From NCBI RefSeq assembly GCF_900177345.1, contig NZ_FWZT01000006.1:124001-188000 (forward strand): a stretch of DNA of 64,000 nt, read 5' to 3'. Below are positions 6,549-53,517 of the stretch, one piece after another (position 1 is the first letter of the stretch; each line of letters begins with the position of its first letter). The notes under the pieces were generated by a model, which was not told the origin of the DNA, did not search any database, and saw only the letters and a program-made list of their open reading frames with translations. This stretch comes from Pseudobacteriovorax antillogorgiicola (lineage in GTDB: Bacteria > Bdellovibrionota_B > Oligoflexia > Oligoflexales > Oligoflexaceae). Position numbers and translations under genes: made by a program.

Positions 6549-6812
6549 AGCCCCCGCTCCTTTTGTATATCCAATTATCTGATACAAGATCGTCTGGTCA
6601 ATGCTTTAGCTTCTACATTTCCTATCGGTTTTTTTGGATTTTTCTTTAGAAAATTTCGATTAATAATTTATTATCAGGCTTTTATGAGAATCTCTGGATA
6701 TACAAAAAATCACGTTTTTTATGTATGTTTAGTAAATCCAAACATACGTTTAATCGCTTTTCGTTCAAGACGGGGAGAGAATCTTCCGATAAAATATATA
6801 CGAGGTACCAGA

Positions 6813-9457: not shown

Positions 9458-9736
9458 ATCAGCTCCTTGTAATTACTCAGGTTCATGCACAATTAATACC
9501 TTTTATAACTATTTGATATCGTTATCTTGTTTAATTACCAAATTGCTCAATATTTATACACTTTCTCTCAGAGGCGAGCCGTACAAAATTGTCCAAATGA
9601 GCAAAAACTGAGCAATAAAACGCTGCTATCGCAGCAAAACCCGCTAAACCATGTCATTAAATCTAGTTAACTTACGAAAATTATTGGAATAAGATTTGCT
9701 CACCTAAAGGTGGATCTTGGTAGGAGCTGGAGAACT

Positions 9737-11659: not shown

Positions 11660-12141
11660 ACTATCTTATTCTTATTGTTGATGACGACCGCGATGTCTTA
11701 TTTACCGTTAAATCGGAATTACAAGACCTAAGCTCCATGTTCACCCTAGAAACGGCTGAATCAGCCGATGAAGCGCTCGAAGTGATTGAGGAGTTTGAAG
11801 CCGACGAGGGTCAATTAGCACTTATTATTTGCGATCATCTGATGCCAAATAAGTTGGGTGTCGATTTTCTAATCGAACTTGAACACCGATCCATGACTCA
11901 AGCCAGCAAGAAGCTTCTTCTCACCGGCCAGGCTGATCATCAAGATACGATCAAGGCGATCAACCAAGGTGGTTTAGATCACTATATTGCTAAACCTTGG
12001 GACCCTGTTGAGTTTTCTAAGGCTGTGAAAAACTTGCTAACAGACTATGTTATCGCTTTTGATAGCCAACCAGAACGGTTTACCCGAATTCTGAACCAGG
12101 AAAAGATATTTAATTTCATTCATGAACGAGGTGATCTATGA
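11656..12141 (+). CDS. Response regulator, receiver domain only
   Basis: 161 residues. A complete receiver: acidic pair Asp10/Asp11 (LIVDDDRDV), phospho-acceptor Asp60 (IICDHLMP), Thr90 (LLLTGQ) and Lys113 (YIAKPWDP). The remaining ~40 residues form no output domain I recognise; the YIAKPWDPVEF pattern is typical of regulators paired with this kind of kinase. The start overlaps the kinase stop (ATGA) and the stop overlaps the transporter start (ATGATGG), so the three genes are translationally coupled. Confidence 0.88.
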   Translation: MNYLILIVDDDRDVLFTVKSELQDLSSMFTLETAESADEALEVIEEFEADEGQLALIICDHLMPNKLGVDFLIELEHRSMTQASKKLLLTGQADHQDTIKAINQGGLDHYIAKPWDPVEFSKAVKNLLTDYVIAFDSQPERFTRILNQEKIFNFIHERGDL

Positions 12142-37068: not shown

Positions 37069-39831
37069 TCAGGCAGCATCTGCATGGTGTAACCCTGCTG
37101 GGTCCATTTTGCTAAAGTATTTCTTAGGCACCGATATTTCAAACCTCAAACAACGTCTTTCTGGTTCCTCCACATTCTCAAAATCTTCGATTTTTATTGT
37201 TCCTTCTACGGATTCAAGCAGACTTCGTACAGCATCCATACCTACCCCCCGGCCAGATATGTTGTCGACTTTGGTTTTAGTAGAAAAACCGGGATAGAAC
37301 AGCACACTTAATACCGGCTCGCCCTCGTTCAACACGATTCCCAACTGCTTGGCTCGATCCGCAATATCATTTAACAGGACACCCTTGCCATCATCCTGGT
37401 AAGTCAGGGCTATCCGATCGTTATCCACTTTCTGGCTGATTGTGATAGTCCCCCGTTCCGTTTTTCCTTTGGCAATTCTTTCTTGGTTTGACTCAAGGCC
37501 GTGGGAGAGGGAGTTACGGATGAGATGAGTCAGCACTTTTTCAAAAATCTCCGCAGCTTTTGGCTCAAGCCCAAAGCTGTTATTATTGAACTTAAACTTT
37601 GGTATGGGCTTGCTTAACTGGTCGCACATGTTCTTGATTGAGTCGAGCTGGTCAAAGGCAATATCCTCTGGAGTGCGATAGTAGTATTTTTTAAGAAGCA
37701 TCAAGTCTTTATTCAGATCTTTGGGTCGGTCTGAGATCTGCTCAACTGAGTTCAAGACCCGTTGCACTAAAACCCGCGACACAAGAATAAACCGATGATC
37801 TACAACACGACCTAGCTGATTGTTATTAATATCAATGTAGTGATTTAGAGCATCTTTTATGCTACCGTGAAGTTCATTCAACCATGAGAAAGTCATTTCA
37901 CTAAGTGTTTCTTTGCGCCCAGTAACTTCAGACTCCACGGAGTGAATGATTGCACTCAGCTCCGTTAGGTTTAAGGTCCGTGACATACCTTTCAGAGTAT
38001 GATAGGTGACCATCATAAACCGAACCATCTCATCGTTAATATCCCCCTTCTTCAGCATCACATCAACATCAGCAAGCATCTCCAAGCTCACCTTCTGAAA
38101 TTGACCAAATCGTTCTGGCTTTACTTCTATCAGCTGCGAGATCAATTTGATCTCTTTGGACTTGCGATTAATTTCACTTTGCATCTTATTTTTCTCGGTC
38201 ATATCTCTTACTGCAACTAGGATCTTCGTAGTCTTATCGCCATCTACTAGATGATTCCAATCGATTTCCAGCTCTCTCGGCTCTTTATCTTCAGATTTGC
38301 GATAGATTAACTTTTCAGGAAACAGGTGACTATTCATCTCGAAAGCAAGGTCATCCTCACCGAGTATCACATCCAAAGCTGTTTCTAACTGGCCTATCTG
38401 ATCAGAACTCAAGTCACTCCGTCCTTTCAAAAGTTCAACGAGATTTTGGCCCCCAAGGTCGGTTTCATCAAAGATATATTCAAGATACTTGGAATATTCT
38501 CGATCGACACAGTTATCTTGGGTTACTGTGAATATTCCTTGGTTTATGTGCTTTAGAATATCTCTGATTTCTCGGGTTCGCATCTCGACCTTAGCTTCGA
38601 GGTCCTTGTTGATTTCCTGAAGATCATTGTTGAGCTTTTGAATTTTGCGATTGTTCTCACGCTTAATAAAGTTGAAACGACTTCCCAATGCTATAGAAAA
38701 CAAAGATACCTCGATAGCACCACCAGCAAACTGGCTCCAGTAGTTAAACGAGTTCAAATCCCTCAGGCCGATATTGATCATTACCGCCTCTCCTGAGCCT
38801 ATAATATAGGCACCCCAGCCTAGCAGATAGTAGTAGGCGGGGCGGTAGCCTTCGCGAAAACGCAGGATTCCAAGATTAATCATCGTGGCGATGACGATCG
38901 AAGCACCGATGAGCGTGCAGAAGCTCGTCAACTGAACCGATATAAAATGATTAACCAGTAGGTTGAAGGTGCTGAATATGACGTTGAAGCCAAGGATGTA
39001 CTTGGCTTTCCAATACTTAGACTTATCCATGTCTAGATAGTTCCAAGTAAAGAAAATGGCTGATAAAATAATCAGGTCTACAGATACCAGTTGGATATGA
39101 TTGCTGAAGGTTTCGAAAGAGAAGAAGTGATAGGCAAAAAACTGCCCCAGATTGTAGTTACATACCTGGAAAACAAGATTTGAGCCTACGAAGACGATAT
39201 ACATCAAATATAGACTATCTTTCATGGTAATCGCTAGGAAACCATTGTAGAAGATCATCACCAAATGAATTCCGATGAGAAGGCCGAAGACGATGTATTC
39301 CCAGTAGAGGTATAACTGGTAATCCGACTCATCCCAGAGTCGTATAGATAATATGTTTGTTGTCAAACTCTGTGCCCGCATCAAAATAAGTTGACGGCCT
39401 TCAGGTATCTCGATTTGGGTGTTATTGGTGCGTACCTTGAGATAGCGATTCGAAAAGTCTTGTTGATCCCCACCTTGAAAATGGAGTTGCGCCTCTCCGT
39501 TTCTAACAAGAAAAACATCAAAATAATCGATCATTCCATGATTATTTTCTAGGATTAACTTTCGGCTTAGCCCAGAATTTTCCACTTCAAGTATGGCCCA
39601 GTACTCTGCATCGCTATTGCCAAAATTAGGTCTCATTTGCTTCGAATCGTGAAACTCTCCTGCTTGCCACGCCTCCAATGCTTGTTGCGCTGTGATACTT
39701 TGATCTGGAGCTTCATATAATTTAAGGTAGGGTCCAAGAAACGGCCTTTGTGCAATATCGTCAATGGAGAAAATTTTAGCTTCACTAGGGAAAGCTATCA
39801 ACAATAGGCCTATGACAGTCCAGACTTTCAT
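37069..39831 (-). CDS. 7TM-DISM CheA-like sensor kinase (Hpt + HATPase)
   Basis: About 920 residues from the ATG at 39831, whose product starts with a signal peptide (MKVWTVIGLLLIAFPSEAK). The open frame runs on to 39942, but that part is inside the terminator of the upstream gene, so it is not the start. Order: 7TMR-DISM periplasmic domain ~20-170 (APDQSITAQQALEAWQAGEF); seven transmembrane segments ~175-380; coiled coil ~390-430; PAS-like ~430-550; Hpt with His ~610 in TYHTLKGMSRTLNL; CheA-type HATPase ~755-905 (LIRNSLSHGLES, YQDDGKGV, SGRGVGMDAV). No HisKA, CheW or receiver domain. A paralogue of the 21152 kinase. Confidence 0.85.
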   Translation of the reverse strand: MKVWTVIGLLLIAFPSEAKIFSIDDIAQRPFLGPYLKLYEAPDQSITAQQALEAWQAGEFHDSKQMRPNFGNSDAEYWAILEVENSGLSRKLILENNHGMIDYFDVFLVRNGEAQLHFQGGDQQDFSNRYLKVRTNNTQIEIPEGRQLILMRAQSLTTNILSIRLWDESDYQLYLYWEYIVFGLLIGIHLVMIFYNGFLAITMKDSLYLMYIVFVGSNLVFQVCNYNLGQFFAYHFFSFETFSNHIQLVSVDLIILSAIFFTWNYLDMDKSKYWKAKYILGFNVIFSTFNLLVNHFISVQLTSFCTLIGASIVIATMINLGILRFREGYRPAYYYLLGWGAYIIGSGEAVMINIGLRDLNSFNYWSQFAGGAIEVSLFSIALGSRFNFIKRENNRKIQKLNNDLQEINKDLEAKVEMRTREIRDILKHINQGIFTVTQDNCVDREYSKYLEYIFDETDLGGQNLVELLKGRSDLSSDQIGQLETALDVILGEDDLAFEMNSHLFPEKLIYRKSEDKEPRELEIDWNHLVDGDKTTKILVAVRDMTEKNKMQSEINRKSKEIKLISQLIEVKPERFGQFQKVSLEMLADVDVMLKKGDINDEMVRFMMVTYHTLKGMSRTLNLTELSAIIHSVESEVTGRKETLSEMTFSWLNELHGSIKDALNHYIDINNNQLGRVVDHRFILVSRVLVQRVLNSVEQISDRPKDLNKDLMLLKKYYYRTPEDIAFDQLDSIKNMCDQLSKPIPKFKFNNNSFGLEPKAAEIFEKVLTHLIRNSLSHGLESNQERIAKGKTERGTITISQKVDNDRIALTYQDDGKGVLLNDIADRAKQLGIVLNEGEPVLSVLFYPGFSTKTKVDNISGRGVGMDAVRSLLESVEGTIKIEDFENVEEPERRCLRFEISVPKKYFSKMDPAGLHHADAA

Positions 39832-39916
39832 AAAGCTCGTATGCCCCACAAATTGATTCACCGTGATTAAGGCATCGGTCGAAGCTTGCAACACTATCAA
39901 GGCATATTTTGCCGAC

Positions 39917-39952
39917 AAAAAAAGGGAGGGCTGCTGTTTCAAGCACCCTCCC
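39917..39952 (-). terminator. Rho-independent terminator of the RTX gene
   Basis: On the reverse strand GGGAGGGTGCT and AGCAGCCCTCCC form a strong stem, followed by TTTTTTT (A7 at 39917-39923). It lies 37-72 bp after the RTX gene stop and shows that the next minus-strand gene must begin further downstream. Confidence 0.9.
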
Positions 39953-39988: not shown

Positions 39989-41137
39989 TTATGGTCTCAC
40001 TTTACCTGTCCAGCGGTCACCGTAGTTAGCGCCGTGAACATTTCCTGTTCCCCACTTACCTTCGAAAGCATCATCTTGATAGTAGTTAAATTCGAACCAA
40101 CCGGACTGCCCTTCCATTGTCCAGCGACCCTTGACTTGTCCCTGCTGATAGGTAATATTCGATAGACTCCCACGACCATAAGAGGTTTGATACCAGCCAT
40201 TGGAGCCGCTGAAAAACATGGTGTTGCGATAGCCACGTCCGCTATTGTAGTAAACGCTATCGTAAGTCTTGTTACCATAGATTTTGGAGTAATCATCGCC
40301 AGGACCTTGATCTTCAAAGCTGCGTAATAGTTTTTGCATTTGGAGAGGCAAGTCTTTCACCTGTGCCTTGCGAGCTGGTGCGACTGTTAAATCAAGGACT
40401 TCGATTTCGCCGCCTTCACGACTCGCACATACCAAATATTCGGTATTCTTAAGGTGGATCGTAACTCTTAAGCCGTTGTCGTCAGACTGGTCTCCAGCTT
40501 CAAAGCTATTTCGAACATTGCGAAGGACAAATCTTACGAGATGATCAACACCAAGTTTCTTAAGTTGCTCACGATCCTCATAGTAAGAACTATCAATAAC
40601 TTCACAGAAGCCTGGTGAGTTTAGGACATCGATGACAGGCAAACCATTCTTGATTAGTGGCTGATCAAAGTTTTGATCCAACTGAACTTGGAACACAGGG
40701 CTGCCACCCTCGTCTAATTCGCCGATGAGACCAAGAAACAAAGCATCGCTATTGCCACTGCCAGCATCAAAGAAATCACTGCCATCTCCAGGAGCCCATA
40801 AGAATGCGTCGTCCCCGGAACCACCGAAAGCGCGGTCACGGTTGAAGGGGTTACCATCTTCAGTACCACCAACAAGTACATCGTCGCCCTGATTTCCGAA
40901 AATGACGTCTGTTCCAAGGCCGCCGAAAATCACATCGCTACCACTACCACCGTACAGAATATCACCAAACTGAAGGCTTTGATCACGCCCACCCCCGGAC
41001 AAAGCCGGGTCTTGAGGCTGTACGAATGGATTATCGAAGTTATTGTTATCTTTGCCAATAATTAGATTTGGCTGACTACCCGCGAATGCTGTTGCCGATA
41101 TCATCAGTAAACTGGATAAGCTAAGAAGTTTTTTCAT
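39989..41137 (-). CDS. Exported RTX-repeat calcium-binding protein with C-terminal Trp/Gly domain
   Basis: 382 residues. Signal peptide MKKLLSLSSLLMISATAFAG. At about 60-130 there are five or more RTX nonapeptides (GGSGSDVIFGG, GGLGTDVIF, GNQGDDVLVGG, GGSGDDAF), which bind Ca2+ in a parallel beta-roll. A Sec signal plus RTX repeats is unusual, since type I RTX proteins carry a C-terminal signal instead. The middle (~140-290) is unrecognised. The last ~75 residues repeat the Trp/Gly domain seen at the end of the 31193 product (GRWTMEGQSGWFEFNY, FEGKWGTGN, DRWTGKV). No catalytic domain is obvious. Terminated by the strong hairpin at 39917-39952. Confidence 0.8.
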   Translation of the reverse strand: MKKLLSLSSLLMISATAFAGSQPNLIIGKDNNNFDNPFVQPQDPALSGGGRDQSLQFGDILYGGSGSDVIFGGLGTDVIFGNQGDDVLVGGTEDGNPFNRDRAFGGSGDDAFLWAPGDGSDFFDAGSGNSDALFLGLIGELDEGGSPVFQVQLDQNFDQPLIKNGLPVIDVLNSPGFCEVIDSSYYEDREQLKKLGVDHLVRFVLRNVRNSFEAGDQSDDNGLRVTIHLKNTEYLVCASREGGEIEVLDLTVAPARKAQVKDLPLQMQKLLRSFEDQGPGDDYSKIYGNKTYDSVYYNSGRGYRNTMFFSGSNGWYQTSYGRGSLSNITYQQGQVKGRWTMEGQSGWFEFNYYQDDAFEGKWGTGNVHGANYGDRWTGKVRP

Positions 41138-41285: not shown

Positions 41286-44075
41286 CTAACCATGGACTCT
41301 CCTAATGTGATCGAGAGCCTTAGAGATGTCTTTAGGTAACACATCAATAAAGTCTTCCTCCGGCTGAGTTCCTGGTCGGTCGGTGCAGAGATAAATAGCT
41401 GCTTGGCTATTGTAGCCTCTTATTTGCTTAGCTAAACTAAGACCATCAAGTGATGAATTATCAAAGTAATAATCAAGTATATAACCTTTCACATCTTGAT
41501 GGCTTTTTGCGTACTCCAAAGCTTGTTCAGGTTCGCTGAAAGTCTTTGGCTGCAATTCAGACTCCTCCCACATTGCAAGAAAAAAAGGATCGTCATCCAC
41601 CACAATCCAAAGGTCGTTTGTTGTTTCCGGGTTTTCTAAGGACGCATAGCAACTTTGAACCATTCTTTCCAGATGTCTACGATTGATGGGCTTAGGGAGA
41701 AAGAGGTCAGCACCACCTCTCAATGCCCGTTTCTGGTAGGTTAAGGCTCCACCATCAGAATGGAGGCAAACGAGGGATTTCCGACCCTGACTTCGAATAT
41801 GAGTCAGCACGTCGAAACCATTACGCTCGTGATCGCCAAAGTCAATATCTACAATCATGAGATTGTAGTGGTTATCCTCTACCATCTTCAATACAGTCGC
41901 GATATCCATCGCAACATCAATCTGGAGAGCCTCGTAGCTAAGGCTAGCTAGTATATCCCTTACAAGCTCAAGGTAGGATTGATCATCATCTGCAAGTAGA
42001 ATTTTGATCTCGCGGCCTGAGTCTCCTTCAATAGGCTGGTACTCCACTCTAACAGCATCCGCTTTGTTCGCTGCGGGAAGCTCAATCCTAAACTCTGTAC
42101 CTTTCGTCTCGTCGGAATAGCAAGATATCCGACCTCCATGACCATCAACAATTTTTTTGGCAATAGCAAGCCCAAGGCCTGTGCCACGCTTTTTACCCTT
42201 GGTATAGAAAGCTTCAAATATCTGTTCTCTCTGCTCTTCAGGAATAAAACTTCCCGTATTTCCTATCGTGATATGGATAGTCTGTTGATCGAGGCGAGTT
42301 TCAACCCAGATTTCGCCACCTTTAGGGCAAGCTTGTTGTGCATTGCCTAAGATATTCGCGAATACACGTTGCAATTTGACTTGATCACCATCAACCATTC
42401 GCTGGTGCTGAATATTCAAACGGACCGTGTGCTCGACTTGCCCTTCCAAGTTAATTGTTTGGGTGAGGCATTCGTCAATAAGCTCGTGTAGAGATATAGG
42501 TTCTTGAATCACCTCTGAATTTGCCCCGATCTCTACGATATCGTAGATCAAGCCATCCACTTCTTTTATGGTTTGGCGGATTCTTGGCAGATGCTTCTGA
42601 GATAGCTGTCGCACTTTTTCGGGGTCATCCAAAGAGCTGATCAAAGACACAAAGCCCTGAATCATGGAAAATGGTTTTTTAACATCATGGGCAAACATCT
42701 GGACAGCAGAGCCAATTGCAGACAAGGCTGCATGCTTGAGCTCGTCATCCTTGGTTTGCTTCACACTTTGCTTCACGTCAACGAATCGAAGATGGCCACT
42801 CTGTCCCATATCGATGATGCGATTGCTAGCAACAATGCATTCAACCTTGACCATAGGTATGAAATAGGCGGTCTGATTCAAGTGATTGACAAAATCCCTG
42901 AATAGCTGGCAGCGCCGGATCAAGTCCACCGCCGTGCTCGCCTTTTTAAGCAATTGTGTGCTGGTATGGTTTGGCAATACACAGCGCCAACGATTAAGAA
43001 GTTTATTGATAATGCTAAATGAGTCCTTGTGGTGAGCTTGACCCAAGCACACCATCACTCCATCACAGCCGCCCAGGTCTCGGGACAATACGCCTTCCTT
43101 GAAGCTAACCTTGACCCCTTGCTCAGCGAATGTATCTTTAAGGAAATTAAGGTATTTGATCGGAAAGTCATTAGGCTCCACCAGAATTGTTAACGAGTCT
43201 GGTACCTGGTGATTCACCCCCTGCTTCCGAACATGAACCGGGCTATAAAGAGGTGAGTGTTCATGGGCTAAGCTTTCAAGGCAGCTTCGCTCCCAATAGC
43301 TCTTTTTCTTAAGAGCCTGCTCCAGTATGCCATGTAGTTTCTGCTTCAAGCCTGAGTTTTCATCTTTTAGAAGCATAAAGGTTGCAAATTGGTATGGTAA
43401 AATGGAGTTAATTTGCTCATGAAGAAAATTGTCTTTCGGCGTTTTTCGCTCAACTCCATGATACAGATGAAGGTATGGCTGACCCGGGTTATGGTTTTCC
43501 CAACACTCAAATGGTCTGATAATCACTCTATCATAAAGTGATAGTGTTCCCTTCCAGTGCTGCTCGTTCCAATGAAGCTCGATTTCTTCATCATCCCAAT
43601 GGTCAAGTTGCCAAGTTCCACTATCGACTACCCCTTTTTTATCTTGGCGAACGATAGACGCGCCAGACATCGCTAGATAATTCATAAAGTCTGGCACCGA
43701 ACGCTGCAATGACACTTCAAGTCGATGTCGAGAGATTTTTTTAAAGTTCTTTTCAAGGTCTTCATAGCGAAGAACTCGGCGAAAGCCCTCACTAGATTGG
43801 CTAGCAAAGTCGATCAGAGACTGAATTACATGACTTGCCTTAATTTCCGTACCATCATGAAAGAAAGCATTTTTCTTGATATGAATACGAAAACTACTCC
43901 CTTCACCGGAAACAGCACAGGTTTCCAAAAGACTGGGCCTTGGTTCCCCGGAGCCATCAAACTCCATCAAGCGATCACTGCAATTGTAGCGGATCAATTC
44001 ATGGATCCAATGTCCAACTTCATCAATCTGTGGCAGTCTTTTGGTATAGACATAAAGGGTTTCACGCTTGGTCAT
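41286..44075 (-). CDS. Cytoplasmic sensor kinase: oligopeptide-binding-like domain + HisKA/HATPase + two receivers
   Basis: 929 residues with no signal peptide or transmembrane segment. Residues ~1-420 resemble SBP family 5 (oligopeptide-binding), with FRIHIKKNAFFHDGTEIKAS matching the family's FHDG signature; similar cytoplasmic domains occur in SgrR. A DHp follows with His463 in MFAHDVKKPFSMIQGF, then HATPase motifs (ILGNAQQAC, TIGNTGSF, GTGLGLAIAKK). Two receivers end the protein: the first with LLADDDQSY and MIVDIDFG, the second with IVVDDDPFF and YILDYYFD. The start overlaps the upstream 44072-44359 gene by 4 bp. It is the third gene of an operon that begins with a sigma-54 activator, and probably senses a cytoplasmic peptide or sugar-phosphate-like ligand. 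Confidence 0.83.
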   Translation of the reverse strand: MTKRETLYVYTKRLPQIDEVGHWIHELIRYNCSDRLMEFDGSGEPRPSLLETCAVSGEGSSFRIHIKKNAFFHDGTEIKASHVIQSLIDFASQSSEGFRRVLRYEDLEKNFKKISRHRLEVSLQRSVPDFMNYLAMSGASIVRQDKKGVVDSGTWQLDHWDDEEIELHWNEQHWKGTLSLYDRVIIRPFECWENHNPGQPYLHLYHGVERKTPKDNFLHEQINSILPYQFATFMLLKDENSGLKQKLHGILEQALKKKSYWERSCLESLAHEHSPLYSPVHVRKQGVNHQVPDSLTILVEPNDFPIKYLNFLKDTFAEQGVKVSFKEGVLSRDLGGCDGVMVCLGQAHHKDSFSIINKLLNRWRCVLPNHTSTQLLKKASTAVDLIRRCQLFRDFVNHLNQTAYFIPMVKVECIVASNRIIDMGQSGHLRFVDVKQSVKQTKDDELKHAALSAIGSAVQMFAHDVKKPFSMIQGFVSLISSLDDPEKVRQLSQKHLPRIRQTIKEVDGLIYDIVEIGANSEVIQEPISLHELIDECLTQTINLEGQVEHTVRLNIQHQRMVDGDQVKLQRVFANILGNAQQACPKGGEIWVETRLDQQTIHITIGNTGSFIPEEQREQIFEAFYTKGKKRGTGLGLAIAKKIVDGHGGRISCYSDETKGTEFRIELPAANKADAVRVEYQPIEGDSGREIKILLADDDQSYLELVRDILASLSYEALQIDVAMDIATVLKMVEDNHYNLMIVDIDFGDHERNGFDVLTHIRSQGRKSLVCLHSDGGALTYQKRALRGGADLFLPKPINRRHLERMVQSCYASLENPETTNDLWIVVDDDPFFLAMWEESELQPKTFSEPEQALEYAKSHQDVKGYILDYYFDNSSLDGLSLAKQIRGYNSQAAIYLCTDRPGTQPEEDFIDVLPKDISKALDHIRRVHG

Positions 44076-44359
44076 GAGTCATCTCCTAAAGCTTCGTAGA
44101 AAGCCAGAAGAGCCTGTAAATCTTTAATATACTGATCGACCATAGCTCTTTTTTTTTGGTTTACAGCGTTTTCATCATCTGGAATAGCTTTTTGAGCGAT
44201 AAAGCGAAAGGTTCTGAGGGCCCCTCGAAGATCGTGCTGAAATTTTAAATCGCTCTCTTTTTCTTCTGAAGACTGAGGTAGTGCGACTATTTTGTAGTGA
44301 CGCCCGTCTTTGATTTCCGACCACAGTTCTTCCACCTGATCGTGACTTAGGATTTGCAT
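44072..44359 (-). CDS. Small H-box-like helical protein
   Basis: 95 residues. The middle reads LKFQHDLRGALRTFRFIAQ, which resembles a histidine-kinase H-box (HDLR.PL), and the C-terminal helix (MVDQYIKDLQALLAFYEALG) could be the second helix of a DHp hairpin. No ATPase domain is attached. It lies between the sigma-54 activator gene (11 bases upstream) and the kinase gene (4-bp overlap), so a role as phosphotransfer intermediate or kinase modulator is an inference. The H-box resemblance is by eye only. Confidence 0.6.
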   Translation of the reverse strand: MQILSHDQVEELWSEIKDGRHYKIVALPQSSEEKESDLKFQHDLRGALRTFRFIAQKAIPDDENAVNQKKRAMVDQYIKDLQALLAFYEALGDDS

Positions 44360-44369
44360 ATCAACCTCC

Positions 44370-45791
44370 TTACATCTTCAGAATCGTTTTCAGTTCAGCA
44401 TCTTCTATATGCCCCTCTTGGACAAGTTTATGCAGGCGATTACCAAGGGTAGAACGGGGAATTGCAATAGCTTGAGAGAGTTGGCGGATACTCATGGCTC
44501 CTTTCTGACTAAAGATGACGCGAATCAATTCTACCAATAGAATCTGACTCAGTTGCTCGTAATCCTGGTGCTCACCGGAATGCAACGGAATTACAATCGT
44601 ATTGTCGTCTTGGCGCTGGGGACGCCCTTGTTCCCCTATAGACTCCCAAATATGCTTCGGTATTGCAGCTGGGGCCAGAATCTTATTCATCGCGCCTTCT
44701 GTCATAGCACGCAGGCAGTTACGCAACTCTCGAATATTGCCGTGGCGCCATGTGTAACGTTTCAGGATGTCCAGGGCACCCGCCGAAATATGAAAGGGTC
44801 CCAGTGTCATAGTCTTACAAAAATGCTGCACCAGAGCATCAAATTCATCCATTCTATCGCGAAGAGGAGCTAGTTCGATGGTGGCCTCACAAAGCCTCTG
44901 CCAAAGGTCCATGCGGAAACGACCTTGTTCAACCAGTTCAGGAAGAGATTCGTTTGTGGCAGATAGTATACGAATGGCAACCGGCTTCTCCTTTGCCGCA
45001 CCCACTGGCCTGATTGTTTGATTATCCAAAACTCGAAGTAAGGCGACTTGGGCAGAACTAGTCAGGGTAGCCACCTCATCAAGGAAAATCCAACCGCCAT
45101 TAGCCTGTTCAATCAATCCGACCTTATTGGCACTTGCTCCGGTGAAAGCCCCTTTCACATGACCAAACAACTCTGACTCTAACAGAGTTGGAGCAATAGC
45201 CCCGCAGTGAATACGATTAAACGGAACCCCTGATGGCAAGGCTTCCTCAAACAATTCACTCACTAACTCCTTGCCCGTGCCCGACTCGCCGAAGATATGT
45301 ACCGAGCTGATAGCCGAGTTGATTATCCTAGGGATGCGGGCTTTGATCTGATCCAAGGTTGAAGAAACAAAGTGTTTTGGCTTGTGATCTTTGTTGCGAT
45401 CGGTCTGAAAAAATGCAAAGGTCGCGGCCAGTCGCTCCACCAGATCACCTTCATCAAGACCCTTAAAAATAAAGTCGTCTGCTCCTAGATCCAAGCAACG
45501 TCGCACAGTTTCTGGATCGTTCATATCGGAGCACATCATGATAATAGCTCGGGGAATCTCTTGCTTCAGCTTCTGCACCAACCGATCCCCTGAAACACTA
45601 CTTTGGCCAATATTGATATCGAGTACAATGAGGCACGGGCCTGTTTCCTCATCAATAGCAGCAAATAGCTCCTCTGCCGTCAGACAAGTCGTTACTTGAA
45701 AAGAGTGCCCCTTAGCCTTAGTCAAAGTCTCACGAAACTCTTCACCATAGAAAGGGTCGTCGTCTAAGTGGTAAATCCGATTTATGGCCAT
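44370..45791 (-). CDS. Sigma-54-dependent response regulator (NtrC type)
   Basis: 473 residues. Receiver ~1-125 with Asp10-Asp12 (HLDDDPF) and acceptor Asp58 (LIVLDINIG). AAA+ domain ~140-375 with Walker A GESGTGKE (168-175), the sigma-54 contact loop GAFTGA (214-219) intact, Walker B GGWIFLDE (232-239) and a conserved RELRNCLRAM. A C-terminal helix-turn-helix (MSIRQLSQAIAIPRSTLGNR) is longer and more winged-helix-like than the usual Fis-type domain. It should activate sigma-54 promoters. One such promoter lies at 45906-45920 in front of the divergent ABC exporter operon. Confidence 0.9.
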   Translation of the reverse strand: MAINRIYHLDDDPFYGEEFRETLTKAKGHSFQVTTCLTAEELFAAIDEETGPCLIVLDINIGQSSVSGDRLVQKLKQEIPRAIIMMCSDMNDPETVRRCLDLGADDFIFKGLDEGDLVERLAATFAFFQTDRNKDHKPKHFVSSTLDQIKARIPRIINSAISSVHIFGESGTGKELVSELFEEALPSGVPFNRIHCGAIAPTLLESELFGHVKGAFTGASANKVGLIEQANGGWIFLDEVATLTSSAQVALLRVLDNQTIRPVGAAKEKPVAIRILSATNESLPELVEQGRFRMDLWQRLCEATIELAPLRDRMDEFDALVQHFCKTMTLGPFHISAGALDILKRYTWRHGNIRELRNCLRAMTEGAMNKILAPAAIPKHIWESIGEQGRPQRQDDNTIVIPLHSGEHQDYEQLSQILLVELIRVIFSQKGAMSIRQLSQAIAIPRSTLGNRLHKLVQEGHIEDAELKTILKM

Positions 45792-45883
45792 TTCTCGTCC
45801 CCCTTTTGAAAAATCCTGGCCAAATATCGGCCATTCGGCCTGAACTTAGCAAGGCATTTCTAGCCGATTGACCATAAATCACT

Positions 45884-45899
45884 AATATTACTATATTAA
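45884..45899. repeat. Short palindrome in the divergent control region
   Basis: TAATAT-TACT-ATATTA, a perfect 6-bp inverted repeat, lies seven bases upstream of the -24 element. It could be an activator-binding half of the sigma-54 promoter region or only AT-rich sequence. Confidence 0.25.
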
Positions 45900-45905
45900 T
45901 AACTA

Positions 45906-45920
45906 TGGCACAGAGCTTGT
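45906..45920 (+). promoter_or_regulatory. Sigma-54 -24/-12 promoter of the ABC exporter operon
   Basis: TGGCAC-AGAGC-TTGT matches TGGCAC-N5-TTGC in all but the last base, with exact GG-to-G spacing. It is 38 bases before the ATG at 45958 and about 115 bp from the start of the divergent sigma-54 activator gene, the usual arrangement for an enhancer-dependent operon next to its activator. Confidence 0.65.
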
Positions 45921-45957
45921 AATAGGTGGTTTGTCGAATCAGCAAGGAGGGCAAACC

Positions 45958-46122
45958 ATGACACTTTTCATCCAACAGCTATTACTTCTGAAGTTCTTCA
46001 AAGAGCTGAAAGAGAAAAAGAAGAAAAGACAATTCGCAGACCTAAACGAAAAGAGAGACTTCGAGCGCACCTCCAATCAGGAAGTCGCTTGCCAGAGACT
46101 CTTCGGGGAGTTCATAGGATGA
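45958..46122 (+). CDS. Small basic protein, first gene of the exporter operon
   Basis: 54 residues starting MTLFIQQLLLLKFFKELKEK, with an ideal AGGAGG seven bases upstream. A short hydrophobic helix is followed by a Lys-rich stretch (EKKKKRQF) and an acidic and polar tail. No family recognised. It could be a membrane-associated leader peptide, a small subunit or the exported substrate of the ABC protein. The stop overlaps the next start (ATGA). Confidence 0.6.
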   Translation: MTLFIQQLLLLKFFKELKEKKKKRQFADLNEKRDFERTSNQEVACQRLFGEFIG

Positions 46123-46547
46123 ATTCGATCACATTGGAGGCGGCTCAGTCGCCTTCCATAAAGCAGCTTTATGAAGTGGTGAACATAGGCTTGCTATCAA
46201 AATTAACAAACTATCAATCACAGCGCGAGGACCGTGTTGCTGTGGAGGTGCCAGAGATGAAGGATCTAAGCATTGATGTGTCTAGGGATTTCATGGCGAC
46301 AATCATCAACGGTTTGCAGGTTCAACCCCGAGCCGAAATCGTTCGTCGCCACTACCTGGAGCATCAACCACCTTCACGAATTGCACAGGACCTTAATCTT
46401 AGCCCGAGCCGAGTCGAGTATCATCTTAAAATATTCCGGCTCCTAATGATAAAATCGCTACGGCAGTTACAGGATGAGAACTGCCTTAAAGGAGACCATC
46501 ATGATCCGTCAGATTCTGCATCGACTGACATTTTCTCAAAGCTCTGA
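46119..46547 (+). CDS. Sigma-factor region-4-like / LuxR-like HTH regulator
   Basis: 142 residues from the ATG at 46119, which overlaps the stop of the small upstream gene and has GGGGAG eight bases away. The N-terminal half is helical and unrecognised. The C-terminal half (PRAEIVRRHYLEHQPPSRIA then LSPSRVEYHLKIFRLLMIKS) is a helix-turn-helix of the sigma-70 region 4 or LuxR type. A region 2 is absent, so it is not a full sigma factor. Its 3' end overlaps the ABC gene start by about 47 bases, indicating translational coupling. It may control the same operon or a target elsewhere. Confidence 0.7.
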   Translation: MNSITLEAAQSPSIKQLYEVVNIGLLSKLTNYQSQREDRVAVEVPEMKDLSIDVSRDFMATIINGLQVQPRAEIVRRHYLEHQPPSRIAQDLNLSPSRVEYHLKIFRLLMIKSLRQLQDENCLKGDHHDPSDSASTDIFSKL

Positions 46548-49500
46548 GCTTGTCAGGCGGGGAACGAATAAGGTACTTGGCGACCATGACCTGCTCGAAC
46601 TTCCCGATGACTTAAAAACCGAGCACTATCCGAAGGGTTTCGATAAGCTAAGGCTTGATCGGCCCTTACACTTTTTTATGGACTGTATCAAAGCTGTAGG
46701 CACCAACGTAAGGCTACAGACGATTCTTATTCTGGCCACTTTGCTGGTCGAGTTGACTATGCCTTATGCAGTTTTCAATATTTTGGAACTGATTCGCGGC
46801 AGCTTTGAAGGCGAGACCCACCTTGCCCACGGCATCATCAGTGTCATCGGTCTGGCGGGCCTCGGTGTTCTTGCGGGCGTCTTGGTGCAGCACATGATTC
46901 ACCAAGCTTTGATGGGCATTATGAAAACCTACAATGGGCTGAATACCATTGTATTTAAAAAGTCTCTAAAGGTATCACGAGATGGTATGAAGCAAAGTTC
47001 CATCGGTGATATCGTGAATCACATGGGTTCTGATTCGGGCCAGGTGAGTGAAGGCATTTGGTGTGTTGTGGAGCTGTTGTATGCGTTTGCAGCCTTTGTC
47101 GGTGTAACTGTTATAGCTTACACCTATCTGGGGCCGGCAGCTCTTGTTGGGGTAGGAACCCTGCTGCTACTAACACCTATTCTTAAGCGAGTTTCAACAC
47201 ACTTTATTCGATCTGAGGAGACTCTGATGGAATACCGTGACCAGCGTGTCAACCTCCTGTCTCAGATTTTTTCAGGGATGAGAGTTGTTAAGTTTTTCGT
47301 TTGGGAATCAAAGCTTCTCCAAGAAGTTATTGGCAAGCGTTCACGAGAGCTTGACTCCCAGAGGGTTCTCGCCCGGGCGATTAGCCTTTCAAACTTACTT
47401 TGCCTTGTTGCGCAGGCACTCACTTGCCTAGCATCATTCGCGACCTTTCACCTGCTAGGTGGCGAGTTGACCGCGAGTATTATTTTCGCATCAATCACGT
47501 TATTTTCTGTATTGGAGCATCCTTTTGGTCGCTTGTCTGATCATATCGCTGGGGTGAGCAATGCGCTGGTTTCTTCCGAAAGATTGATCAAGTTTCTTAA
47601 GCTTCCGGAAAGCCAGGGCACTAGCCAAGCAGAATTAGCCTCAGTGAACGTTGGTCCTGCATTGCAGCTCAACAAAGTGGAAGCTCGGTACCAGGATGAT
47701 GAAAATCTGGCAATCAAGATTGATTCGCTTCAGGTCGATCGCGGTGAAACTGTAGCTGTCATTGGGCCAGTCGGCTCAGGTAAGACGAGTTTATTGCGCA
47801 CGATTCTAGGTGAGATCAACCTAGAAGCCGGTGACGTAGAACTGGATTCAAGTATTAAAAAGGTGTCCTTTGTTTCGCAAGAGTCCTACGTTCTTAACGA
47901 AACACTGGAGGACAATATTCGCTTTGGTCACGATCTGGGCGATGTCGATCGCGCCATCCAATTGTCAGCGCTGAGACAAGACTTGCGCTTTTTCCCCGCT
48001 GGTCTCAAAACAGAAATTGGCGAGAACGGGGTGAACCTTTCGGGGGGACAAAAGCAGCGACTCAGCCTCGCCCGAGCTGTTTACTCTCAGCCAGATCTCG
48101 TTTTGCTAGACGACTCTTTGTCAGCAGTGGACCCTGCTACCGAAGCATACTTGGTGGAGCAGCTCTTGCTTGATGCCTGGCAAGATACAACCTGTGTCTT
48201 AGTCACACATCGACTGAAACACCTAGAAGCATTTGATCGTATCGTTTTTATGAGCGACGGCCAGATACTCGATCAAGGTAGCTTTACGGATCTGTTGGAG
48301 CGTTGCCCGGAGTTTCGAGACTTTTGTCAACATCATGATGAAGAAGAGCAAAAAGCTCCTTCACATAAGCACGACCTGACTCCAAGCCTAGACGATCATT
48401 CCGGAGCGTTTATGGCTCACGAAGATCGCGAGGAAGGCGCAGTAAACCCAAGGGTTTATGGCGACTACTTCAAAGCTATGAGTGGCAAGACTCCTCGGGA
48501 ACGGCGTTTGATTGGTCCGCTTTTGATTGGTACGGCTGTGCTTGGAACCGTGGTACCACTTCTCCAGGGCTTATGGTTAAGCTACTGGGCCGATGGCAAA
48601 ACTGATGCCTTTGCACCTACGTTTGCCAATGTCTGGGGCGATTCTTGGCAACTTGTCATCTATGGGGGCTTGAGTTTAGCACTTGTGACAGTCGCATTCG
48701 CTCAATTTCGACTATGGGCTTTGAGGGCTGTGAGAGCCGGTGAAATTCTTCATGAAGAAGCTCTACAACACGTGATTCGAAGCCCTATTAGCTTCTTCGA
48801 TAAGAATCCCGTGGGTCGAGTATTGAATCGATTTGCAAAAGATATCGATGCGGTGGAAAAAGAGATGCCCTGGGATGTGCAGGAGATGATACGCACCGGG
48901 CTTCAGGCTTTCATGTCTTTTGTTGTCATGGTTGTGGTTGTTCCCGTAACCGCCCTCATCATGATACCAACTATTTGGGTATACCTGAAAGTCCAGAATG
49001 CTTATCGGCACTCAGCCCGTGAAACGAAGCGCTTGTTCTCCATATCTCGATCGCCTCTTTTCGCCCATTTTAAGCAAACCCTGGAAGGGGTCGATACGAT
49101 CAGAGCTTATGGTCAGGAAAAATTGTTTATCAATGGTTTTCATAAGGCCGCCACGCGCAATCAGAAGACTTTTTGGACGATGATTCTTGTCAACCGTTGG
49201 TTTTCAGTCAGAATGCCTGTCATGAGCGGAGTGATTACCTTAGCAGTGGGGATCGCAGTCGTGCTCCTAGCAAAGCAAGGATTGATTGCTGCGGGTCTAG
49301 CTGGCTTAACCTTGCTCTACACGAGAAACTTTGCGTCACAGATGAGCATGGCTGTACGCTGTTTCAGTGAAGTTGAATCACGCCTTACCGCAGTGGAGCG
49401 CTTGAAGTATTACGGTACGCTGGCACAGGAAAGCTCTGAGGGCTGTCGTGAGTGGCACCCCAAAAGTGGCTCCATCGTGTTTGAAAATGTGAGTCTTCGC

Positions 49501-50208
49501 TATGACAAACATTTACCCTTGGTGCTTGATGGAGTGAGCTTTGTGATTCCTCATGGTCAAAATGTGGGGCTCATTGGTCGCACTGGTTCTGGTAAGTCAA
49601 CCCTCTTCCAGAGCTTGTTTCGCTTGGTAGAGATCGAGTCGGGACGTATCTTAATCGATGGTGCGGACCACCGTGATATCGCTCTCGATACCTTGCGAAA
49701 GAAGATTGCGATTATTCCCCAGGACCCAACCCTATTTGTGGGTACGATTCGCTCGAACTTGGATCGCTTCCAAGAGTTTAGCGACGCTGAGATCTGGGAT
49801 GTTCTGGGGAAAGTGCAGCTGCACGATCTTGTGTCAAGCTTTGAGCAAGGCCTGGATGCCGCTGTCGCGGAAAACGGTAGCAACTTTAGTCGCGGGCAGC
49901 GTCAGCTGTTCTGTTTCGCCCGTGCCTTGCTGATGGATACTCCTGTGATTTGCCTCGATGAGGCGACAGCATCGGTTGACGTCATCACCGATCGGGTGAT
50001 CCATACTGTTCTTCACGAGCATTGTCGCGACAAGACTGTATTGATCATCGCCCACCGGCTGGGAACTGTAGCTCACTGCGATCAGGTGATCGAACTTAGA
50101 AATGGTAAAGTTGTTGATATTCGGCGCAAAAAGGCCCCGAAAGAGGTCATTGAAGCTCCAGCACGCGTCCTAGGTGGAGCAAATGCAGAACTTGCCATTG
50201 AAACCTAA
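46501..50208 (+). CDS. Full-length ABCC/MRP-type ABC exporter
   Basis: About 1235 residues from the ATG at 46501 (AAGGAG six bases upstream). Two fused TMD-NBD halves in one chain. NBD1 has Walker A GPVGSGKT at ~422-429 and signature LSGGQKQRLSLARA ~512, with LLDDSLSAVD as in MRP proteins. NBD2 has Walker A GRTGSGKST ~1025 and a variant signature FSRGQRQLFCFARALL ~1128, where SRGQ replaces SGGQ as in the asymmetric MRP pattern (LSVGQRQ). Several hydrophobic segments lie before each NBD; there is no TMD0. The linker between halves is acidic. MRP-type exporters move conjugates, peptides or lipids out. It is the last gene of the sigma-54-controlled operon, and a hairpin follows at 50228-50256. 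Confidence 0.88.
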   Translation: MIRQILHRLTFSQSSELVRRGTNKVLGDHDLLELPDDLKTEHYPKGFDKLRLDRPLHFFMDCIKAVGTNVRLQTILILATLLVELTMPYAVFNILELIRGSFEGETHLAHGIISVIGLAGLGVLAGVLVQHMIHQALMGIMKTYNGLNTIVFKKSLKVSRDGMKQSSIGDIVNHMGSDSGQVSEGIWCVVELLYAFAAFVGVTVIAYTYLGPAALVGVGTLLLLTPILKRVSTHFIRSEETLMEYRDQRVNLLSQIFSGMRVVKFFVWESKLLQEVIGKRSRELDSQRVLARAISLSNLLCLVAQALTCLASFATFHLLGGELTASIIFASITLFSVLEHPFGRLSDHIAGVSNALVSSERLIKFLKLPESQGTSQAELASVNVGPALQLNKVEARYQDDENLAIKIDSLQVDRGETVAVIGPVGSGKTSLLRTILGEINLEAGDVELDSSIKKVSFVSQESYVLNETLEDNIRFGHDLGDVDRAIQLSALRQDLRFFPAGLKTEIGENGVNLSGGQKQRLSLARAVYSQPDLVLLDDSLSAVDPATEAYLVEQLLLDAWQDTTCVLVTHRLKHLEAFDRIVFMSDGQILDQGSFTDLLERCPEFRDFCQHHDEEEQKAPSHKHDLTPSLDDHSGAFMAHEDREEGAVNPRVYGDYFKAMSGKTPRERRLIGPLLIGTAVLGTVVPLLQGLWLSYWADGKTDAFAPTFANVWGDSWQLVIYGGLSLALVTVAFAQFRLWALRAVRAGEILHEEALQHVIRSPISFFDKNPVGRVLNRFAKDIDAVEKEMPWDVQEMIRTGLQAFMSFVVMVVVVPVTALIMIPTIWVYLKVQNAYRHSARETKRLFSISRSPLFAHFKQTLEGVDTIRAYGQEKLFINGFHKAATRNQKTFWTMILVNRWFSVRMPVMSGVITLAVGIAVVLLAKQGLIAAGLAGLTLLYTRNFASQMSMAVRCFSEVESRLTAVERLKYYGTLAQESSEGCREWHPKSGSIVFENVSLRYDKHLPLVLDGVSFVIPHGQNVGLIGRTGSGKSTLFQSLFRLVEIESGRILIDGADHRDIALDTLRKKIAIIPQDPTLFVGTIRSNLDRFQEFSDAEIWDVLGKVQLHDLVSSFEQGLDAAVAENGSNFSRGQRQLFCFARALLMDTPVICLDEATASVDVITDRVIHTVLHEHCRDKTVLIIAHRLGTVAHCDQVIELRNGKVVDIRRKKAPKEVIEAPARVLGGANAELAIET

Positions 50209-50353: not shown

Positions 50354-52246
50354 ATGTTCAAGACTCCCCTAACAGCGCTCATCCTAATTTTCCTAAGCAC
50401 CATTGCTTATGGAAAAAAACCTATCGATATTAATGATGAAAAGTTTGAGGGCGCGTGGCTAGGGCCTTATGCATCCGTGTATATTGGCGATGAGACTATC
50501 GATCAGGTGATAGAACCATCCTTTGCAAGCAAGTTTTTCGACAACGACTTTCTCTACATCATATTGCGGAATCCTGGTTCAAGTTTGCGCGCCACCAAAC
50601 CAGTCTGGGTTCGGTTTGATGTCACAAACTCTGGGGACAAAAGCCAAACTTTTGTGCTAGACGCCTTATCCTGGCCATTTGACTTTTCTGAGTTTTATGT
50701 AAATGGTCAACTTCGAGACAGAATGGTTATTGGGGGGCGTCAAGAACGTTTTTTCTCAACTCAGATCGAGCCGCATCAAGAGGCTAGCATTCATATCCGA
50801 ATTGGTGATGGGTTAACAAGCAACCTACTTGTATTTTCTTGGCGCTCAAAAACAAAATACTTCATCAGAGAACTAGAAACCAAGAACTATTACACCATGA
50901 CCTATTCGATTATCGGGATGAGTATCCTATTCAATCTTTTGGTCTTTCTTGCATATAGAGATCGCACCTATTTGTCCTACATCATGTATCTCGTCTTTTT
51001 GGGTCTCTGGAATTATAGTGTCACCAATATAGCTAGACAGATATGGGGTAGCAATGATGGAATCGCTGTGACAGCATCTCTGATGGGTCTTTTTGCACTT
51101 TTATTCTCAATGGAATTTCTCAACCTGAAGCGATATAAAAAACTTTATGCAATTGCCAAGGTCTTGCTAGCTTTCTCAGTGATCAACGTGCTGGTATCTA
51201 TTTTCGATAGCAAGCTTGGTTTTCTAATGGTTCACGTCACATCGATGTTCGGCTCACCATTCTGCTTGCTTTGTGGAATCATCATCTCTCTCCGCGAAAG
51301 GCAGATTCACGCCTATATTTACTCGGTAGCCTTTGGAACCTTCCTCATCGGCGTCTTGATGACTGTTTTATTTAATCAAGGGATGGTAAGCGACCTTGAC
51401 TACCTAGGCGGTATGCAAAGCGGAGCCTTGATTGAAAATATTCTTATGATGGTCGCGATGGGTCAGAAAATCTACCAATCAGAACGGCAGCGGAAGCACA
51501 GCTACGGCCAACTCGCAAAAGTATTCTTTCCCCATCAACTCAAGCAAATGAAAGCTGGGCAAACGTTAGAAAACACCATGCCAGTAGGAGAGAAGGAGGC
51601 CTGTATACTTGCATTTGACGTAATCAACAGTTCCGCTATTGAGGAAGAAAGTTTTGCTCATTCATGGGAAGAGTTTATGTCCCATTGTCGAGCGATTATG
51701 ATGGATGGCTACGATATTGAGAAATTGGCAAGCACTGGTTACATGATCAAAGAGATGGGCGATGGTTTTCTTTGCTCCATTGGCTATCCATTCGACAACA
51801 TCGGGGACAACCTTTCCCAAGACGCTGTCCAACTAGCAGAAAACATGACGTTATTGTTTCATAAATTAATGAATCCCAAAGGCTGTCGGCAAGAGGTGCA
51901 TTGCTCCATCGGCATTGCTAAAGGTACCGTGAGGGGTTACTTCTCAAAGTCTGGCGCAATTCGCCACGATCTTTGGGGGCCAGCTGTGGTTCACGCCACC
52001 CGTTATGAATCCATTCGCAAGAAACTATTCCTCGCTGAAGGTCTCGAAGAAAATCATATCATCACCCTTCAGCAGACAGTCTATCACGGCTTACCCACAG
52101 AGCTGCAAATCAGCTACAAACTGATCGACTTGGAAACCACGAAACTCAAGGTTCGAAACGATCAGCAGGCGACCCACTTAGCCTATAGAATCGGTACTAA
52201 GGCACGGCCCAGAGCACCTCTAATCCAGCAAGTATCAAATATTTAG
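50354..52246 (+). CDS. 7TM-DISM receptor class III nucleotide cyclase
   Basis: 630 residues. Signal peptide 1-20; periplasmic DISM-type domain ~21-180 (TKPVWVRFDVTNSGDKSQTF); seven transmembrane segments ~185-380; then a class III cyclase domain ~412-560 with CILAFDVINSSA (first metal Asp), LASTGYMIKEMGDGFLCSIG (second metal Asp in GDG) and a late GPAVVHATRYE. It should make cAMP or cGMP in response to a periplasmic ligand. The C-terminus carries a TATCAAATATT sequence that resembles the operator of the next gene. A cNMP-binding kinase is encoded at 9737, a possible but unproven consumer. Confidence 0.82.
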   Translation: MFKTPLTALILIFLSTIAYGKKPIDINDEKFEGAWLGPYASVYIGDETIDQVIEPSFASKFFDNDFLYIILRNPGSSLRATKPVWVRFDVTNSGDKSQTFVLDALSWPFDFSEFYVNGQLRDRMVIGGRQERFFSTQIEPHQEASIHIRIGDGLTSNLLVFSWRSKTKYFIRELETKNYYTMTYSIIGMSILFNLLVFLAYRDRTYLSYIMYLVFLGLWNYSVTNIARQIWGSNDGIAVTASLMGLFALLFSMEFLNLKRYKKLYAIAKVLLAFSVINVLVSIFDSKLGFLMVHVTSMFGSPFCLLCGIIISLRERQIHAYIYSVAFGTFLIGVLMTVLFNQGMVSDLDYLGGMQSGALIENILMMVAMGQKIYQSERQRKHSYGQLAKVFFPHQLKQMKAGQTLENTMPVGEKEACILAFDVINSSAIEEESFAHSWEEFMSHCRAIMMDGYDIEKLASTGYMIKEMGDGFLCSIGYPFDNIGDNLSQDAVQLAENMTLLFHKLMNPKGCRQEVHCSIGIAKGTVRGYFSKSGAIRHDLWGPAVVHATRYESIRKKLFLAEGLEENHIITLQQTVYHGLPTELQISYKLIDLETTKLKVRNDQQATHLAYRIGTKARPRAPLIQQVSNI

Positions 52247-52344: not shown

Positions 52345-52779
52345 ATGCTAACGAACTCTCAAAGACAAAGCAACCGAGCCAAGCTCCAAGCACTGTCGTC
52401 CGAAAATACAGCGACCTTGGGCAAGGTCTTCTGGAGACTTGTGGATGAATATGACCTTAGCAACAAGCAAGTCGCCACAATTCTCGATGTTACCACAGCG
52501 CAGGTTTCCAACTTGAGTCGCACTCGGAAAATACCACAGAAGGCCGAAGCCTATGCCCGTGTCGGTCAGTTGCTTGGCATCAAGAAATGTCTTGAAGTGC
52601 AGTATCCTGTGAACCCCAAAGTCAAATCCAATTGGCTGAAGGTCAAGCGAGAGGCTTTTCAAGGTGCAAGCGCTATCGACTTCATCACCGAAGATATGTT
52701 TCAAACTGGTGTGCGCTTGTTTCAAGTGCGTCGCTTGATGGATCTCTGGCGTGTAGGCAGCATACCGGAATTAATTTAG
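52345..52779 (+). CDS. Xre/MbcA/ParS-type antitoxin
   Basis: 144 residues. The helix-turn-helix half (LSNKQVATILDVTTAQVSNL) matches the Xre domain of this family. The C-terminal half (NWLKVKREAFQGASAIDFIT, then VRRLMDLWRVG) matches the MbcA/ParS toxin-binding DUF2384 region. It should repress its own promoter and bind the RES toxin. AAGGAGG is six to seven bases before the ATG. The RES gene follows after 60 bp. Confidence 0.85.
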   Translation: MLTNSQRQSNRAKLQALSSENTATLGKVFWRLVDEYDLSNKQVATILDVTTAQVSNLSRTRKIPQKAEAYARVGQLLGIKKCLEVQYPVNPKVKSNWLKVKREAFQGASAIDFITEDMFQTGVRLFQVRRLMDLWRVGSIPELI

Positions 52780-52839
52780 CCGACGCGGCTTCGTATCTTT
52801 TGAATCTAATCGAACTTAAGGCACAGATGGGATCTGTAT

Positions 52840-53517
52840 ATGATGATCGAGAAAGCTCCTTACACAACGAGTCATGCCTACCGCAACATTCCTACCAATC
52901 ATCCGAAGCGCCACCTTTATGGCGACGATCTCACGGAAGATGAGATCGAACTGGTTCAGTTTTGGGCTGACCACGGCTCAGGTATCGATCAAGACCAGGC
53001 CTATAAAGACCGTTGGTATGACTACAATGACCCGGAAGATCTTTCGTTCTGCTTTGAAGGAGTGGTGGTTCCACCTTCGCGGTACACAGATGGTAGCTTT
53101 CCTGTTTGGTATGCTGCCATTGATAAAGAAGAGGCTTCCCGCGCAGAAATCATCTACCACCTCTGCCGTCAGGCACGGGTCGATATGGTTCCCGATGAGG
53201 CCTACGTTTGCTATCAGAGAGCCATGTGCAAGGCAGCGGTTGAAAACCCATTGGTAGGAGACCTACGATCATTCACAAGAGATCACTGGCATCTTCACGA
53301 CGACCCACCCTACTTCGAATCTCAAAAAATTGGCCTTCAGTATCAGTCTGAAGGTTATGAGGGACTCCTATACCCATCCAAACGCTACCCTAAAGCAGAC
53401 TGCCTGGCGATATTCAACAAGCAGTCAATTTTATCAAGTAAAGTTGTCAATTTTTTTACTGTTGAAGTCTACCGGGATGCGGTAACTGTCTGCGGCGAAC
53501 CTTGGCAGGAACTCTAA
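52840..53517 (+). CDS. RES-domain toxin
   Basis: 225 residues. RYTDGSFPVWYAAIDKEEAS provides the conserved Arg, and the RES domain Glu lies in the following SRAEIIYHLC. EGYEGLLYPSKRYPKADCLA provides the Ser (GLLYPSxR). RES toxins degrade NAD+. The N-terminal ~60 residues are acidic and have no assigned function. The start is one of two adjacent ATGs (52840 or 52843) with only a weak ribosome site, which may keep toxin synthesis low. It forms a pair with the antitoxin and is convergent with the HEAT-repeat gene. Confidence 0.85.
   Translation: MMIEKAPYTTSHAYRNIPTNHPKRHLYGDDLTEDEIELVQFWADHGSGIDQDQAYKDRWYDYNDPEDLSFCFEGVVVPPSRYTDGSFPVWYAAIDKEEASRAEIIYHLCRQARVDMVPDEAYVCYQRAMCKAAVENPLVGDLRSFTRDHWHLHDDPPYFESQKIGLQYQSEGYEGLLYPSKRYPKADCLAIFNKQSILSSKVVNFFTVEVYRDAVTVCGEPWQEL

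Follow-up and report, generated by a model that had tools for sequence, protein, structure and literature searches.

What does a cytoplasmic sensor kinase encoded next to a sigma-54 promoter control: the export of a compound, or something else? The question is raised by two divergent operons in a 64-kb window (the whole stretch of DNA that was analysed; positions 124001-188000 of its contig, in a 7.3-Mb genome), which an earlier note had read as a closed circuit whereby a compound in the cytoplasm triggers its own export. All six ORFs named in that note are present as described (ORF calls and Pfam). The features of the locus, in window coordinates, are as follows.

41286-44075, minus strand: soluble hybrid sensor kinase, SBP_bac_5 - HisKA - HATPase - REC - REC, 929 aa (Pfam)
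44072-44359, minus strand: stand-alone H-box protein, 95 aa, putative phosphotransferase (invariant His42-Asp43; AF2 helical hairpin)
44370-45791, minus strand: sigma-54-dependent response regulator, REC - AAA+ (GAFTGA) - winged-HTH-like C-terminus, 473 aa (Pfam)
45817-45839, plus strand: putative regulator binding site, TGGCC-N7-GGMC-N3-CSGC (kept in three orthologous loci)
45906-45920, plus strand: sigma-54 -24/-12 promoter, TGGCACAGAGCTTGT (pattern match, conservation, rpoN in genome)
45958-46122, plus strand: small basic protein, 54 aa, conserved, predicted core output of the circuit (homologs in genomes G001 and G002)
46119-46547, plus strand: sigma-70 region-4-only protein, 142 aa, lineage-specific (weak Sigma70_r4_2 match)
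46501-50208, plus strand: full-length ABCC/MRP-type exporter, 1235 aa, lineage-specific addition (Pfam)

The minus-strand operon – regulator, 95-aa H-box gene and hybrid kinase – is tightly packed, with a 4-nt overlap between the H-box and kinase ORFs, and a gene-by-gene Pfam and ORF check agrees with the earlier description of a sigma-54 activator, an H-box-like small protein and a hybrid kinase on this side. Divergent from it on the plus strand lie the 54-aa ORF (preceded by an AAGGAGG ribosome-binding site), the 142-aa ORF and the exporter, overlapping as had been claimed: an ATGA (46119-46122) is common to the stop of the first and the start of the second, and the 142-aa and exporter ORFs share 47 nt. 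The exporter is placed at ATG 46501; because this codon has its own AAGGAG, the longer 46474 start is less likely. In the window genome one transcript probably makes the region-4 protein and the exporter as well as the small protein.

By the earlier note's own test, the two divergent operons should be conserved together. Relatives were compared among 58 genomes of the phylum, two of which, a Pseudobacteriovorax MAG (G001) and an Oligoflexaceae MAG (G002), belong to the window's own family. Of the 58, three carry the SBP kinase, and a scan of 84,980 genomes with strict patterns, by which distant relatives may be missed, returned two relatives only. G001 keeps the gene order regulator - 95 aa - kinase, with identities of 57, 40 (over 45 residues) and 34-35% (kinase, full length); in G002 the order is the same and runs off the contig end, the kinase appearing to continue on another contig. 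The core carriers are three draft genomes, one locus being split by an assembly gap. Upstream of the regulator, both G001 and G002 have a divergent short ORF. Conservation of the two operons thus held in part: the regulator operon, the promoter and the small protein occur together in all three genomes, the region-4 gene and exporter there in one of the three. Judged by gene content, the conserved unit is the regulator operon plus the sigma-54 small protein and not the regulator operon plus the exporter, because the exporter and the region-4 gene are missing from both other loci. The exporter half would have been gained by the window lineage, unless the other two lost it, and the shared target would be the small protein. 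Since the exporter lies outside the conserved module, a compound that switches on its own export is possible only as a lineage-specific add-on.

The promoter claim of the earlier note fared better. The element at 45906-45920 sits 52 nt 5' of the 54-aa ATG and has GG at -24, TTG at -12 and the correct spacing; rpoN is present as one copy in the window genome and was found in all three core-carrying genomes. TGGCAY-N5-TTGYAA has a single match in the 64 kb, against 0.01 expected. The element is kept at -46 and -56 in the two orthologous loci, TGGCAY-N5-KTGKAATA standing ahead of each of the three small ORFs (-46 to -56). The consensus C of TTGC is missing from the -12 element, which in the window has a T in its place; the three loci read TTGT, TTGT and GTGG. 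Uniqueness in 64 kb, conservation in two orthologous loci and the presence of rpoN together support a sigma-54 promoter. Against it count the -12 mismatch and a sigma-70-like promoter (10/12) at 45868-45897, which occurs in the window only: the coding strand in G001 and G002 has nothing comparable.

A second element, TGGCC-N7-GGMC-N3-CSGC, is kept in the three orthologous loci, 87-109 nt ahead of the -24 element. It is the sole exact match genome-wide and among the fetched loci is confined to this locus; the search pattern was built from the same three sites, so that uniqueness in the genome is only supporting, and the case for the site depends mainly on its conservation in three loci that have diverged. 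Matches with 1-2 mismatches number 242 against 152 for a reversed-pattern control, not far above it. A genome-wide regulon was considered and rejected: among the best 20 pattern matches, a close -24/-12 element occurs only at this locus. Both patterns are confined, among all fetched loci, to this locus, save one coding match of the promoter pattern (the fourth -24/-12 match, at L091, dismissed because it falls inside a coding gene). The circuit looks dedicated to this locus, since the motif/promoter pair is found here only; the proposal of a dedicated activator is supported.

The regulator has Pfam matches to Response_reg, Sigma54_activat and the AAA lid, that is, the REC and GAFTGA-bearing AAA+ domains of the NtrC family, and D58, K110 and GAFTGA are invariant in the three orthologs (identity 49-56%). 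A profile search found no Fis-type C-terminal HTH in it, only weak HTH_IclR/MarR-like matches. As in AtoSC, ZraSR and NtrBC, a histidine kinase and a REC-AAA-HTH activator are combined with an upstream site, a -24/-12 promoter and a divergent target; unlike those NtrC-family systems, the locus has a soluble SBP sensor on a hybrid kinase, a stand-alone H-box protein and a non-Fis C-terminal HTH.

Homologous basic proteins of 50-56 aa are encoded at the same place in G001 (L071, 8480-8632, minus strand) and G002 (L073, 2798-2968, plus strand), and a ribosome-binding site precedes each of the three ORFs. The score of the window protein against that of G002 was reached by 0 of 2000 shuffles and 0 of 8424 decoy ORFs, and the score of G001 against G002 by 8 of 2000 shuffles; the direct similarity between window and G001 is not significant (123 of 2000), so that the G001 protein is linked to that of the window through G002. 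Proteins of this size are difficult to align. No further copy was found at E<0.005 in the 58 genomes, and none that was convincing. A DUF1127-like identity was tried and rejected: the three members have no Pfam match even at E<=10.

Might the conserved transcript instead be a regulatory RNA, its ORF secondary, as with SgrS? The resemblance in layout to sgrR-sgrS/sgrT-setA speaks for it. We think it very unlikely, however, given protein similarity (R-x-F and E-x-[RK]-x-[FY]) across the three ORFs, no intrinsic terminator 3' of the ORF in G001 or G002, and no Rfam match in the window. Alternatively, the product could be a toxin or antimicrobial with self-protection, an antibacterial small basic amphipathic protein that the exporter secretes or against which it protects the cell. 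The net charges of +4, +4 and +11 and an amphipathic N-terminus in two of the three proteins are in keeping with this, and the lineage is predatory or competitive; but the charge is not conserved, two of the three loci lack any exporter, and tight control by a cytosolic sensor would be unusual for such a product. We regard this explanation as improbable.

That the small protein might be the exported peptide, as the earlier note suggested, is unlikely because homologues of it occur with no exporter linked to them and no close relative of this one: at E<1e-100 neither G001 nor G002 has an ABCC relative genome-wide. The same observation bears on an autoinducing peptide circuit, in which the small protein would be exported by the ABCC pump, processed, re-imported and sensed by the SBP_bac_5 domain. 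Such a circuit would make sense of an operon that joins small protein and exporter in the window genome, and of an SBP domain that resembles oligopeptide binders; yet the exporter has no peptidase domain (Pfam), and by eye the small proteins have neither a signal peptide nor a double-glycine leader. We give it very little credence. Also a long shot is a loop within the cell, in which the soluble SBP-kinase would read, through the H-box phosphorelay, the very peptide that it induces. If true, this would be peptide signalling within the cytoplasm of a Gram-negative bacterium, and the stand-alone H-box phosphotransferase would belong to a new class.

The lineage-specific genes remain to be placed. 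Domains and motifs mark the exporter as a true ABCC-type protein of full length, with an ABCC-type degenerate site 1: Pfam gives two ABC_membrane and two ABC_tran domains in two TMD-NBD units, among PDB sequences it comes closest to ABCC2, MRP1 and MRP4, an Asp replaces the catalytic Glu of NBD1 (LLDDSLSAVD) and the NBD2 signature is altered (NFSRGQRQ). An Asp in the NBD1 Walker B and an altered NBD2 signature define the degenerate site of ABCC-type transporters (PMC7756269), and the single-chain TMD-NBD-TMD-NBD order is that of MRP4, MRP1 and ABCC2. Unlike these, the exporter is bacterial, has no TMD0 and falls below the cut-off of the NCBIfam MRP equivalog (686 bits against 1470). The 142-aa protein, not present at the G001 and G002 loci, has a weak Sigma70_r4_2 match below cut-off and resembles region 4 of ECF sigma factors. 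Most of its nearest matches are full ECF proteins, and region 2, present in most of these best matches, is absent from it. A second region-4-only, ECF-like protein is encoded in the window genome (L089, about 6630-7196, minus strand), not in a similar module.

Absence from the other two loci would also be expected if the exporter and region-4 genes had inserted behind the small-protein gene as passengers, functionally unlinked to the circuit. ABCC relatives occur in 18 other genomes, and those examined have varied neighbours, none seen to be conserved, which fits the same view. Against it, the ATGA and 47-nt overlaps imply translational coupling of the three genes, there is no intergenic space among them, and the one sigma-70-like match (9/12, 46426-46455) is at chance level. 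A passenger insertion is in our judgement unlikely, though not negligibly so.

We favour, then, a circuit with the small protein as its core output, and turn to its input. The kinase (929 aa) has Pfam matches to SBP_bac_5, HisKA, HATPase_c and two Response_reg domains, with the phospho-acceptor His, HATPase and Asp-bearing REC of a hybrid histidine kinase. It lacks both a signal peptide and any TM-like segment (max KD19 1.17), in line with a cytoplasmic location. SBP_bac_5 is matched by all three kinases at E<=1, in the window with 59 bits against a cut-off of 32.4 and over profile positions 1-156 of 368 only: in the first 440 aa the match is limited to the N-terminal lobe, and the C-terminal half of the domain matches nothing. 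The AF2 model of the domain is poor (pLDDT 49) and was dropped from the fold search. Nearest to the domain are OppA-type binders (E 1.5e-6), then, weakly, SgrR (E 0.0037). The earlier description of an oligopeptide-sensing hybrid kinase therefore stands as to a cytoplasmic SBP_bac_5 kinase, while the oligopeptide is no more than a reasonable guess: the match covers the N-terminal lobe only, and the family takes in nickel, heme and other binders too.

To pass phosphate to a separate response regulator, hybrid kinases generally depend on a His carrier. The 95-aa protein is likely to be this phosphotransfer step. Its His42-Asp43 does not vary among the nine family members whose genes adjoin this regulator family, and the AF2 model is a confident hairpin of helices (pLDDT about 90 within them), so that alignment and model place a conserved acceptor His in a helical hairpin. 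There is no Pfam match, no recognisable Hpt or HisKA profile or fold match, and no significant Foldseek match, known phosphotransferases included; a weak profile match to the kinase DHp aligns the His residues. Spo0B, ChpT and PhyT are histidine phosphotransferases (PMC5898713, PMC3433190), and like them the protein is stand-alone, with an H-box His on a helical hairpin, and would bridge receiver and regulator; unlike them it has about 95 aa, no degenerate ATPase domain and no significant fold or Pfam match. We found no prior description of the family in the open literature.

Relatives of the regulator (E<1e-120) are found in 27 of the 58 genomes, and in nine of those 27, from three families, a protein of 90-107 aa with the invariant His-Asp adjoins the regulator relative. 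A profile built from the nine members finds the H-box family in 21 of the 58 genomes: within the order, in 18 of 19 regulator-positive and 3 of 24 regulator-negative genomes (Fisher p 4e-8, on counts made by hand from the regulator and H-box searches; the statistic ignores phylogeny). In G025, G039 and G041 the H-box gene adjoins a membrane hybrid kinase or a close relative, with other sensors. Because the H-box gene so often adjoins the same regulator family or a hybrid kinase, these data support a putative phosphorelay from kinase through receiver and H-box protein to regulator. Variant modules at L149, L127 and L160 have the H-box gene beside a membrane hybrid kinase, the sigma-54 regulator being adjacent in two of the three. 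In two families of the order the H-box gene stands away from the regulator, in a fixed position ahead of genes that, read from sequence, look like guanylate kinase and spoT (L159-L170).

Taken together, the comparisons make it fairly probable that a dedicated phosphorelay lets a peptide-like cytoplasmic ligand drive the small protein and, in the window genome, export as well. The soluble hybrid kinase would detect the solute through its SBP_bac_5 domain; given the domains present, the invariant residues and the way in which the genes are paired, phosphate is predicted to pass from the kinase His to the receiver(s), to His42 of the 95-aa protein and on to Asp58 of the regulator. The conserved sites suggest that the regulator binds at 45817-45839 and drives sigma-54 polymerase at 45906-45920. 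Much like SgrT with PtsG, though only by analogy, the small basic protein probably works intracellularly, on a transporter or at the membrane. Translational overlap would, in the window genome, have joined the region-4-only regulator and the ABCC exporter downstream, with export as a second output.

The closest parallel is the glucose-phosphate stress locus sgrR-sgrS/sgrT-setA of E. coli, where a regulator with an SBP domain controls a small protein and an efflux pump (PMC4021124, PMC13060122). In both, the gene for a cytoplasmic SBP_bac_5 sensor is divergent from a small-protein gene that is followed by an efflux pump; here the layout has extras, since the 142-aa gene intervenes and the sensor gene is preceded by those for the regulator and the H-box protein. 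In SgrR one HTH-SBP protein is the transcription factor, whereas the SBP domain of this locus is part of a hybrid kinase with a predicted phosphorelay and sigma-54. No homologous SgrR regulator was found at the locus (probability of the SgrR match 9%; no DNA-binding domain in the kinase by Pfam), the sgr small protein and pump are unrelated to those found here, and homology between the two systems stops at the SBP superfamily. A relay that works would be a counterpart to the SgrR-SgrT-SetA stress circuit reached independently, by convergence, and would give a poorly studied lineage a defined small-protein output; in the open literature we found no description of a soluble kinase with a peptide-binder domain that controls one small protein via sigma-54. 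The locus also shows that a conserved promoter and small-protein cassette can gain an exporter by overlap.

Several other genes were noted around the two operons. Directly 3' of the exporter is a 7TMR-DISM receptor fused to a guanylate-cyclase-type domain (50354-52246), and just downstream an Xre-like antitoxin is followed by a RES-domain protein, probably an Xre/RES toxin-antitoxin pair (52345-53517). On the other side lie a 382-aa protein with RTX-type calcium-binding repeats (39989-41137) and another 7TMR-DISM protein, which carries HATPase and an Hpt-like segment (37069-39942); at 9710-13505, overlapping genes encode a cNMP-binding histidine kinase, a receiver protein and a sodium/sulfate (citrate) symporter. 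A large gene that by eye resembles a polyketide synthase begins about 20 kb from the exporter (contig about 195-200 kb; L091, 7114-12003).
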